From: Methanothrix harundinacea 6Ac
Lineage (GTDB): Archaea; Halobacteriota; Methanosarcinia; Methanotrichales; Methanotrichaceae
Direction of reading: 5' to 3'
Assembly: GCF_000235565.1 (NCBI RefSeq)
Contig: NC_017527.1
Location: 806,001-870,000, forward strand
DNA: 64,000 nt
Positions 25,494 through 28,473 of the stretch are shown here, piece by piece; the stretch's first letter is position 1; each line of letters opens with the position of its first letter. Both the position numbers and the translations under genes were made by a program. The notes beneath the pieces were generated by a model. It was not told where the DNA came from, ran no database searches, and saw only the letters and a list, made by a program, of their open reading frames with translations.

Positions 25494-25589
25494 ATGGGGT
25501 TGGCCAAGAAGCTCTTCAAGGCCCTGGCCCTCATAGGCCTCGGCAAATTCGTCTCCCGCCTCAAAAAGGGGCGGAAGCGGCGTAGGTAA
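25494..25589 (+). CDS. possible 31-residue basic amphipathic peptide
   Basis: A short frame starting MGLAKKLFKALALIGLGK and ending in a run of Lys and Arg. GGTGA lies eight bases before the ATG. The hydrophobic centre flanked by basic residues suggests a membrane-associated peptide. No homologue is known to me, and frames this short arise by chance; its only support is the ribosome site and the non-random amphipathic composition. Confidence 0.35.
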   Translation: MGLAKKLFKALALIGLGKFVSRLKKGRKRRR

Positions 25590-25612
25590 ATTCTATAATT
25601 TTTTATCTCATA

Positions 25613-26324
25613 AACCTGAGGTGTGCGGGCCGGAGCCCCGAGGAGATCTCGCGGCTCATCCTGACCCACGCCCACCCCGACCACATGGGGGCGGCCCGGG
25701 CCGTAAAGGAGGCGTCGGGCTGCTCTGTGGCGTGCCACCCGGCCGATAAGGGATGGATCGAGGACGTTTGCCAGCAGCTCGCCGACCGCCCCGTCCCCGG
25801 CTTCGAGGACCTGGTGGCCGGCTCCGTCGGGGCCGACGAGGAGCTCCTCGACGGGGACCGGATCGACCTCGGCGGCGGGCGGGATCTGGAGGTGATCCAC
25901 ACCCCCGGCCACTCCCCCGGCTCCATCTCCCTCTGGATGGCCGAAGGGGGGGTCCTCTTCTCCGCCGACGCCATCCCCCTGCCGGGAGGGATGCCGATAT
26001 ACGACGATGTCTTGAGCTCCGTCCAATCGGTCCGGAGGTTGAGGGGGATCGAGGGAGTCCGGCTCCTTCTATCGGCCTGGGACGATCCCCGGACCGGGGC
26101 GGACGCCCGCCGGATCATCGACGAGGGGGCTCCTTCATCTCCAGAGGATCCACGCCGCCGTCATCAGGGCGGCGGGGTCTGCCCCGTCGCTGGAGAGGGG
26201 GGAGCTATGCCGCCGGACCCTCCGGGAGATCGGCCTCCCCGAGGCGATGGCAAACCCCCTCACCTGCCGGTCCTTCGCCTCCAGCCTCAAGCTCCTCCAC
26301 CGAAGGGACCTCCCGGAGGGTTAG
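25613..26324 (+). pseudogene. metallo-beta-lactamase-fold hydrolase remnant
   Basis: The frame enters in mid-domain from AT-rich sequence: there is no start or first strands, but LILTHAHPDHMGAARAV (metal-binding HxHxDH), a second-site HTPGHSPGSISLW and FSADAIPLPGG follow in order. Near 26130, inside a G run, the sense passes to another frame, which then reads LHLQRIHAAVIRAAG and on to a TAG at 26322-26324. The gene has therefore lost its 5' end and carries a frameshift. The protein family (glyoxalase-II-like hydrolase) is clear; function is presumably lost. Confidence 0.75.
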
Positions 26325-26413: not shown

Positions 26414-27568
26414 TCAATCCCTCATCTCGAAGGGGTAGGGGAAGATCTCCGAGACCATCTTCGTCGAGTAGTTCCCCTCCTCTCCCAGGACGACCAGGAT
26501 CCCCCGGCCGAACTCGAAGAGGATCTGCCGCTCCTCCCCCGTCGGGGCCGCGGCCCTCCCGTCGGGGAGACGGTTTATCACCGCCCGGATCTCGGAGTCC
26601 CCCTCGGAGATCGCCTTATAGATCGCCACCTTCAGGGCGCTGGTGGTGAGGCCGTAGAGGGCGTTCTCGACGTTGCAGCCGGTGTAGATCCTCCCCGAGG
26701 AGGTGAGGACCGCAGCGCCGACGGGGTAGCGGGAGTAGGGGGCGTAGGCGGACAAGCTAGCCTTCCGGGAGGCTTCTGCCAGGGCCGAAACCTCCGAGTC
26801 GTCCAGCTCCTGGACAAACCAGCTGCGGTAGAGCTGATCATATCTCCCGTCCTCCAGGAGCTCCACCATCGCCGCATCGATGGACCTGAGGAGCTCCGGA
26901 TCTCTCACCCCAAAGTAGAGGGAGTGCATCTCCCAGGGGGTGGCGAGAGGCCTGATCCCGGAATCGTCATGCAACCTCATCCAGAACCGGGTGGTGGAGC
27001 CTCCGCCGACGAAGGCGTCGGCCTCTCCCCCTTTGAGGGCCTGGAGGGCCTCCCCCTCGGATTCGTAAGCCAGAACCTCGATGCCGTTTCGATCCTTCAG
27101 GAGGTCGAAGGAGATGCTCCCGTTCTGCACCGCCACCTTTCTCCCTGCTAGCATATCGGCCGATATGACGTCGCCGTCATCCCGGACGAAGGTGAGGATG
27201 TCGAAGGTCCCGTGGGGGCGGGCTGTGAAGTTGAACTCGGCGAGCCTCTCCTCGGTCTTGACCAGACCGCCGATCACCTCCGCCACCCCCCGCTGGAAGG
27301 TGCGCTGCGCCTCGGTCCAGACCATCGGCTCGGGGATCAGCCGGAACCCCACCTCCTCCCCCAGGAGCCGGAGGAGGTCCAGCTCGAAGCCCCGGAGGGA
27401 GCCCCCCTCCTCATAGGTGAAGGGGGCGAAGTCCCGGTCGAATACAAACCGGAGATCGGCATCGTAGGACGCCTCTTCCGAACCATCGGCGAGGGCGCCG
27501 GAGGCGGGAGATCCGGCGGCAAGGATGATCGAAACCAGAAAGCCGATAAATGGCCAGATGCCTCTCAT
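26414..27568 (-). CDS. secreted solute-binding domain fused to a zinc-less cytidine-deaminase-like domain
   Basis: A continuous 384-residue frame. Residues 1-27 form a signal peptide. About 35-255 match a family-3 solute-binding (amino-acid type) domain: FVFDRDFAPFTYEEGGSLRG, GFELDLLRLLGEEVGF, then AGRKVAVQNGS and KGGEADAFVGG. About 265-384 resemble cytidine deaminase: AYAPYSRYPVGAAVLTSSGR, YTGCNVENALYGLT. However, the zinc and catalytic motif (C/H)AE reads SAL, and PCxxC reads PTGEE, so all three zinc ligands and the catalytic Glu are missing. The deaminase fold probably binds a ligand rather than reacting. Start ATG 27568 lacks a strong ribosome site. No transporter genes adjoin it. A secreted binding or sensing role is inferred; the fusion itself is read directly. 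Confidence 0.8.
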   Translation of the reverse strand: MRGIWPFIGFLVSIILAAGSPASGALADGSEEASYDADLRFVFDRDFAPFTYEEGGSLRGFELDLLRLLGEEVGFRLIPEPMVWTEAQRTFQRGVAEVIGGLVKTEERLAEFNFTARPHGTFDILTFVRDDGDVISADMLAGRKVAVQNGSISFDLLKDRNGIEVLAYESEGEALQALKGGEADAFVGGGSTTRFWMRLHDDSGIRPLATPWEMHSLYFGVRDPELLRSIDAAMVELLEDGRYDQLYRSWFVQELDDSEVSALAEASRKASLSAYAPYSRYPVGAAVLTSSGRIYTGCNVENALYGLTTSALKVAIYKAISEGDSEIRAVINRLPDGRAAAPTGEERQILFEFGRGILVVLGEEGNYSTKMVSEIFPYPFEMRD

Positions 27569-27876: not shown

Positions 27877-28473
27877 TTGAAGATTGCCGTGGACATCGAT
27901 GGGGTGCTGGCCGATCAGGTGGGTGCGGTCCTGGAGGTGATCGAGAGAGAGTATGGCGAGAGGTACCATAAGGGCGACGTCGACCGGGCAGACTGGACCT
28001 TCGGCGGGCGAAGGTTGTGGTCGGAGGTCGGGAGGCTATTGGCAGACCCGGAGTACACCTTGAACCTGCCGCTGATAGAGGGCTCTCAGGGTGGGGTAGA
28101 ACGGCTGAAAGACCATGAGGTCTTCGTAGTGACCGCCAGGCGCCCGGATGCGGAGGAGGCCACCAGGCGTTGGCTCAAAGCCCACTTTCCGTGCCTGAGG
28201 GGCTACTTCACCGCCGGGACCGGAACCAAGCATAAGATCCCCTCCGACGTATTGATCGACGACCTCGACCTCAACATCGTGGAGTTCGTCAGGAGCCACC
28301 CCCATCGCCGCGGGATCCTCTTCGTCCATCCCTGGAGCATCAACGGCACCGATATCGAGGATTACGCCGACCAGGTCTATTATTGCCCCGGATGGCCGAG
28401 GGTGGTGGAGGCGGTCGAGGAGATCGGAGGTCTGGGGTTGCCTCCATCCACCCATCGGCGGCCGCCGGTCTGA
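27877..28473 (+). CDS. HAD-family 5'(3')-deoxyribonucleotidase-like protein
   Basis: A 198-residue HAD hydrolase. The nucleophile motif DIDGVLAD opens the protein (residues 6-13). VVTARRPDAEEATRRWL (about 84-100) provides the Thr of motif II, and the acidic motif DVLIDDLDLNIVEF (about 127-140) binds Mg2+. The layout matches the 5'-nucleotidase, deoxy (NT5C) group, which dephosphorylates nucleoside monophosphates; related phosphatases are possible. The start is TTG at 27877 after GGGAGG. The last 12 residues are low-complexity. The charged small gene lies just upstream. Confidence 0.82.
   Translation: MKIAVDIDGVLADQVGAVLEVIEREYGERYHKGDVDRADWTFGGRRLWSEVGRLLADPEYTLNLPLIEGSQGGVERLKDHEVFVVTARRPDAEEATRRWLKAHFPCLRGYFTAGTGTKHKIPSDVLIDDLDLNIVEFVRSHPHRRGILFVHPWSINGTDIEDYADQVYYCPGWPRVVEAVEEIGGLGLPPSTHRRPPV

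Follow-up and report, generated by a model that had tools for sequence, protein, structure and literature searches.

Cytidine deaminases (CDAs) and family-3 solute-binding proteins (SBPs) are both well known. Conservation of the CAE and PCxxC motifs in active CDAs is textbook knowledge, and family-3 SBPs carry an Arg that binds the alpha-carboxylate of the ligand. Secreted deaminase-fold toxins are known as well, and the premise of the original prediction for this DNA, that deaminase-fold enzymes are cytosolic, was therefore too strong. Within active CDAs, the Asn and Glu of the NxEN motif contact ribose, and the integrity of the CDA tetramer has likewise been attributed to this motif (PMC9897663). 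An exported fusion of a pseudo-deaminase and an SBP, with a loss shared across domains, is apparently undescribed. Neither an inactive extracellular CDA nor an SBP-CDA fusion was found in the literature searched, which consisted mostly of papers available without subscription, and in the papers searched we found no zinc deaminase superfamily pseudoenzymes acting as conserved extracytoplasmic binding modules.

The window, a 64,000-nucleotide stretch of DNA from Methanothrix harundinacea 6Ac (genome of 2,571,034 bases in two contigs; the new name Methanocrinis harundinaceus has been proposed, PMC10598746), encodes such a fusion. Considered jointly, our results are best explained, with a probability of roughly 45%, by a once-evolved archaeal-bacterial family of non-catalytic extracytoplasmic oligomers in which the CDA part would hold a nucleoside and the SBP a carboxylate, the whole serving as a sensor or scavenger.

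The deaminase-like domain and its metal site

The fusion is read from a single unbroken frame of 384 codons (window 27568 to 26414, minus strand; Table 1), and the frame and the Pfam and NCBIfam matches agree on the family-3 SBP and C-terminal CDA domain that had been predicted. The protein is exported, to judge from a signal peptide predicted by sequence reading; signal-like N termini were read in the same way in all 11 members of the fusion family with a readable start, and three bacterial members (G082, G099 and G222) have a Cys within this segment.

Table 1. Features of the fusion gene, in window coordinates
Feature	Position	Strand	Evidence or conservation
Complete gene for the 384-aa protein, with signal peptide, SBP_bac_3 and zinc-less cytidine deaminase-like domain	26414..27568	-	ORF, Pfam, NCBIfam, AlphaFold2 pLDDT 90.3
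Segment resembling a signal peptide (residues 1-27, MRGIWPFIGFLVSIILAAGSPASGALA); lipobox Cys absent from the window protein	27488..27568	-	Hydrophobic core and A-x-A sites, sequence reading
Family-3 solute-binding domain, about residues 36-252	26813..27463	-	SBP_bac_3 (PF00497), residues 39-252, E 6.9e-21; Foldseek matches to amino-acid SBPs
TEER (105-108), whose Arg corresponds to the one that binds the alpha-carboxylate in amino-acid SBPs	27245..27256	-	Present in all members that include this region
DAFVGGGST (184-192), alpha-amino-binding Asp position is Gly189	26993..27019	-	No Asp in any of 13 members
Cytidine deaminase-like domain, about residues 258-383	26420..26797	-	PRK05578 (cytidine deaminase, NCBIfam), residues 257-383, E 1.3e-29, 102.9 bits against a cut-off of 74; Pfam dCMP_cyt_deam_2, residues 258-325, E 2e-9, and dCMP_cyt_deam_1, E 4.7e-7; mouse CDA 1zab, E 1.5e-24; domain model
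NVENA (299-303), retained motif with the ribose-contacting Asn/Glu and a part in the tetramer	26660..26674	-	N299 in 12/13, E301 in 13/13, N302 in 13/13
SALK (310-313) for CAER; the first zinc Cys, the catalytic Glu and the Arg are missing	26630..26641	-	C, E and R kept in 0/13 fusions; at least 99% in 94 active CDAs
PTGEERQ (342-348) for PCxxCRQ; neither the second nor the third zinc Cys remains	26525..26545	-	E346 is Glu in 12/13, Asp in 1/13

An AlphaFold2 model of the full-length protein, built on a 44-row alignment, had a pLDDT of 90.3, with most of the CDA-like domain exceeding 90, and the C-terminal 135 residues folded alone reached 95.3. The domain was modelled singly because SBPs fill the top ranks of the full-length Foldseek listing. 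Compared with mouse CDA (1zab), the single-domain model gave a TM of 0.87, an rmsd of 1.8 and 41% identity (Foldseek, E 9.4e-16), a fold match that is not independent of the sequence match since the model's alignment included active CDAs. The deaminase fold is thus predicted to be retained, as had been proposed, and by modelled fold and by descent the domain qualifies as a T-CDA.

We compared the domain with solved CDAs and with 94 active CDAs from other genomes, a set picked by its CAE and PCxxC motifs, such that conservation at those motifs is there by construction. Relative to the published numbering (PMC9897663), Cys53, Glu55, Arg56, Cys88 and Cys91 map to S310, L312, K313, T343 and E346 of the window protein. 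The three zinc Cys (S310, T343 and E346 in the window) and the catalytic Glu (L312 in the window; Leu, Met, Thr or Val across the family) are missing from all 13 fusions that we found, and none keeps any zinc Cys. Thirty-one positions are at least 95% conserved in the 94 active CDAs, and exactly five of these are gone from all the fusions, namely the four catalytic or zinc positions and the neighbouring Arg (chance of drawing those four among five random losses, P = 1.6e-4). The replacement of (C/H)AE by SAL (310-312) and of PCxxC by PTGEE (342-346), first read in the window, accordingly recurs as conserved losses in 13 of 13 members, and the domain is predicted from sequence to be catalytically dead, as a secreted copy, in the window protein and the other members alike. 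Among the new residues fixed in the fusions, P335 and E346 (replaced by Asp in one member) stand out; a salt bridge of K313, E346 and R347 replacing the metal is conjecture. The domain passes the threshold of the NCBIfam model and receives the name cytidine deaminase despite the lost chemistry residues, a risk for automatic annotation.

The remaining near-invariant CDA positions are largely preserved, with 22 of 27 kept in at least 12 of the 13 fusions. Asn42, Glu44, Ala46, Tyr48, Tyr24, Pro123, Phe126 and Glu97 (mapped with PMC9897663) correspond to N299, E301, A303, Y305, Y281, P377, F380 and E352, all retained in the window protein. In bacterial members, the Tyr of the neighbouring subunit (305) is often lost and one member has Thr for N299; the ribose pocket appears less clear in these proteins.

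A serious competitor to our preferred reading is that the CDA-like domain serves the SBP only as a scaffold for oligomerisation or as a stabilising cap, with an empty and meaningless old pocket. The NXEN motif, the C-terminal Pro and Phe and other T-CDA subunit-contact residues are kept and the base-binding catalytic residues are gone, as a scaffold would have it, and the pocket positions Tyr281 and Tyr305 vary within the fusion clade. The near-invariant N299 and E301 contact ribose in active CDAs and would be needless in a pure scaffold, but they also support the tetramer. Because these two residues serve both functions in known CDAs, the evidence for nucleoside binding and that for a scaffold are close.

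The solute-binding half and its surroundings

The top Foldseek matches of the full-length model were amino-acid SBPs, with TMt values of about 0.8-0.89 for the best. The position of the amino-binding Asp is Gly, Ser, Thr or Ala across all 13 fusions, and 10 of the 11 SBP-only controls have the Asp. The closest SBP-only relative found (L163:1492-2295, minus strand; E 1.6e-38) is also without this Asp, and it is possible that it pictures the SBP before fusion.

No ABC genes were recognised among the nearest neighbours of any fusion copy, neighbours that were mostly judged by sequence reading and in ten cases by Pfam. The polar-amino-acid permease model TIGR01726, found in 11 of 14 genomes in a control that included Methanosarcina acetivorans, was absent in all 6 Methanotrichaceae and three bacterial hosts searched; three other bacterial hosts (G098, G099 and G222) do have polar-amino-acid permeases. 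In two genomes, G000 and G006, the window's among them, the fusion is the sole PF00497 (SBP_bac_3) protein. Since the permease is missing and no second SBP_bac_3 protein exists in these two genomes, service to a polar-amino-acid ABC importer is unlikely, in archaea at least. The fusion is an orphan binding protein.

The SBP half might nevertheless feed a transporter in trans, with the CDA half as a docking or regulatory element. Its fold is intact, the permeases of the three bacterial hosts are of the right family and could accept an SBP in trans, and APC-type amino-acid permease genes adjoin the fusion in one genome (G076). We consider this improbable: the permease is missing in 9 of the 12 searched hosts, all six archaea included (several of the nine being incomplete MAGs), and conserved linkage was not found. 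Less probable still is a new catalytic activity, either in the SBP clamp, as in cyclohexadienyl dehydratase, or at the old deaminase site through E346 or E345. In favour of such an activity, the acidic residue at 346 (Glu in 12 of 13, Asp in one) is absent from active CDAs, the amino-binding Asp is missing, and the solved SBPs closest to the fusion include AncCDT-1. AncCDT-1 itself binds amino acids, however, and the archaeal and bacterial members have no catalytic-looking cluster in common at 188-192.

Gene neighbours differ between genera, and none is conserved beyond the genus. An NT5C-like pyrimidine deoxynucleotidase gene (window 27877-28473, plus strand) adjoins the fusion here and in G006, but not in other genera. 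The window also holds an MBL-fold hydrolase gene (25508-26312, plus strand) that is broken, with an unrecognisable N-terminal part and a frameshift near 26125; the corresponding neighbour in G006, of the same genus, is intact at 293 aa (the label is from sequence reading). In two genomes of one Methanotrichaceae genus, similar secreted-looking proteins adjoin the fusion (L172:5424-6398 and L165:8160-9128, both minus strand), the former carrying a PA14 domain. Pfam detected no kinase, cyclase or chemoreceptor domain in the chain, and none is conserved among the neighbours; a histidine kinase lies near the fusion gene in G606.

Distribution, descent and selection

The 13 fusion genomes comprise 7 of 50 Methanotrichaceae, spanning three genera, 5 of 155 from the class of a Syntrophaceae MAG (Syntrophia by NCBI taxonomy) and 1 from another class of the same phylum. 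All four catalytic and zinc positions are replaced in each, in line with the expectation that the fusion would recur with the same lost residues. The expectation that other Methanothrix genomes would carry it held in part: relatives do, but 7 of the 8 further genomes searched in this genus lack it, and the distribution is patchy, most Methanotrichaceae being without it. In bacterial members, identity to the window protein drops as low as 38-40%. Two genes entered the trees as partial sequences: that of G078, split over contigs, and a Syntrophaceae MAG copy (L034:424-1548, plus strand) with one in-frame TAG, which reflects a sequencing error or recent decay.

A pattern scan of public genomes needs near-exact peptides and so matched only three full-length relatives. 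Among 394 sampled genomes of the window's phylum there was no full-length match outside Methanotrichaceae, and none among 201 genomes of the phylum of an Anaerolineales MAG or 396 of the phylum of an Acidobacteria MAG, two sets with no internal positive in which absence is suggestive only. Carriage by phages or plasmids was rejected, neither collection having yielded a match at 80% query coverage; viral contigs matched the CDA domain only.

In a 107-row tree, the CDA domains of the fusions form one clade (support 100/99) apart from the 94 active CDAs, a grouping recovered in 100% of 200 bootstrap trees; the longest branches are those of bacterial members in this unrooted tree, which gives no direction. 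Because the fusions share a single CDA clade and the same losses, fusion and inactivation look ancestral. The simplest reading is a single fusion event and a single inactivation, with later spread, and transfer between bacteria and Methanotrichaceae is implied. The dN/dS of the CDA domain is 0.06, 0.06, 0.05 and 0.12 in four pairs, and 0.40 between the window protein and G006, a weak estimate at a dS of only 0.10; that of the SBP domain is 0.10-0.27. Both halves are maintained by purifying selection.

An artefact or decaying pseudogene, whether a frame join or a neutral remnant, deserves almost no credence: the broken MBL-fold neighbour and a split CofE frame suggest indels in the window's genome, and one bacterial copy has an internal stop, but the same fusion and losses occur in 13 genomes at identities down to 38%, within one clade and at low dN/dS. 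The sequencing-error join near 26790 that had been raised as a danger is ruled out by same-frame fusions in the 12 other genomes, including the 38-40% identical ones, and decay of a standalone pseudogene is rejected on the low dN/dS and clade-wide conservation.

Proposed role and relation to known systems

In the reading that we prefer, the fusion would be a ligand-binding protein without catalytic activity that works outside the cytoplasmic membrane. Its CDA-like part would assemble chains into a predicted CDA-type oligomer with SBP clamps attached, and the ribose side of the old pocket, being kept, would most likely hold a nucleoside or ribose-containing compound without turnover. The SBP clamp, with its carboxylate-binding Arg kept and its amino-binding Asp lost, would probably take a different carboxylate ligand, and the protein would be an extracellular sensor or scavenger rather than the feeder of an ABC importer. 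The original prediction of a nucleoside-binding or sensing module fares unevenly: nucleoside binding is plausible, N299 and E301 being kept, whereas the one hint of sensing is the missing cognate transporter, and we identified no kinase, receptor or operon partner. More tentative is the fuller picture of an exported pseudo-deaminase family whose CDA-type oligomers bind extracellular nucleosides without turnover and a second ligand in the SBP clamp. If that picture were true, acetate-using methanogens and Syntrophia-class bacteria would share a two-input extracellular module for binding or sensing, derived from a nucleotide-salvage enzyme that is now dead, and the binding of nucleosides would suggest that methanogenic consortia handle nucleosides outside the cell. 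The single ancestral loss of a whole metal site across archaea and bacteria also offers a natural experiment on the CDA fold without its chemistry.

A different CDA fusion occurs in the same archaeal family. In Methanotrichaceae, the housekeeping CDA follows CofE in one chain, joined to its C terminus (L002, L006, L008, L009, L013, L014, L016 and L022), with CAE and PCxxC intact; the CofE frame of the window's genome (L002) is split. These proteins (L006, L009, L013 and others) resemble the SBP-CDA fusion in joining a CDA to an N-terminal partner, but that partner is of a cytosolic type (F420-0:gamma-glutamyl ligase), the motifs are intact and the CDA belongs to a different clade.

With T-CDAs such as mouse CDA (1zab, 2fr5 and 2fr6) and Bacillus subtilis CDA (1jtk), the fusion shares the fold, about 41% identity, NVEN, PxxxxRQ and the C-terminal Pro and Phe. 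Unlike them, it has lost the three zinc Cys, the catalytic Glu and the following Arg, and its CDA-like domain is predicted to be exported, is attached C-terminally to an SBP and ends soon after the conserved Phe. With family-3 amino-acid SBPs (AncQR 4zv1 and 4zv2, Thermotoga maritima ArgBP 6svf, GlnBP 1wdn) it has in common the fold, the carboxylate-binding Arg and the QxGS/T loop, but it is without the alpha-amino-binding Asp and nearby cognate ABC genes and carries the extra CDA-like domain. Cyclohexadienyl dehydratase (5jos), a histidine-kinase sensor domain (3h7m) and BvgS (4q0c) likewise place SBP_bac_3 outside ABC transport; those proteins, however, are enzymes or kinase-linked receptor domains, whereas the partner of the SBP in this fusion is, by prediction, a dead deaminase.
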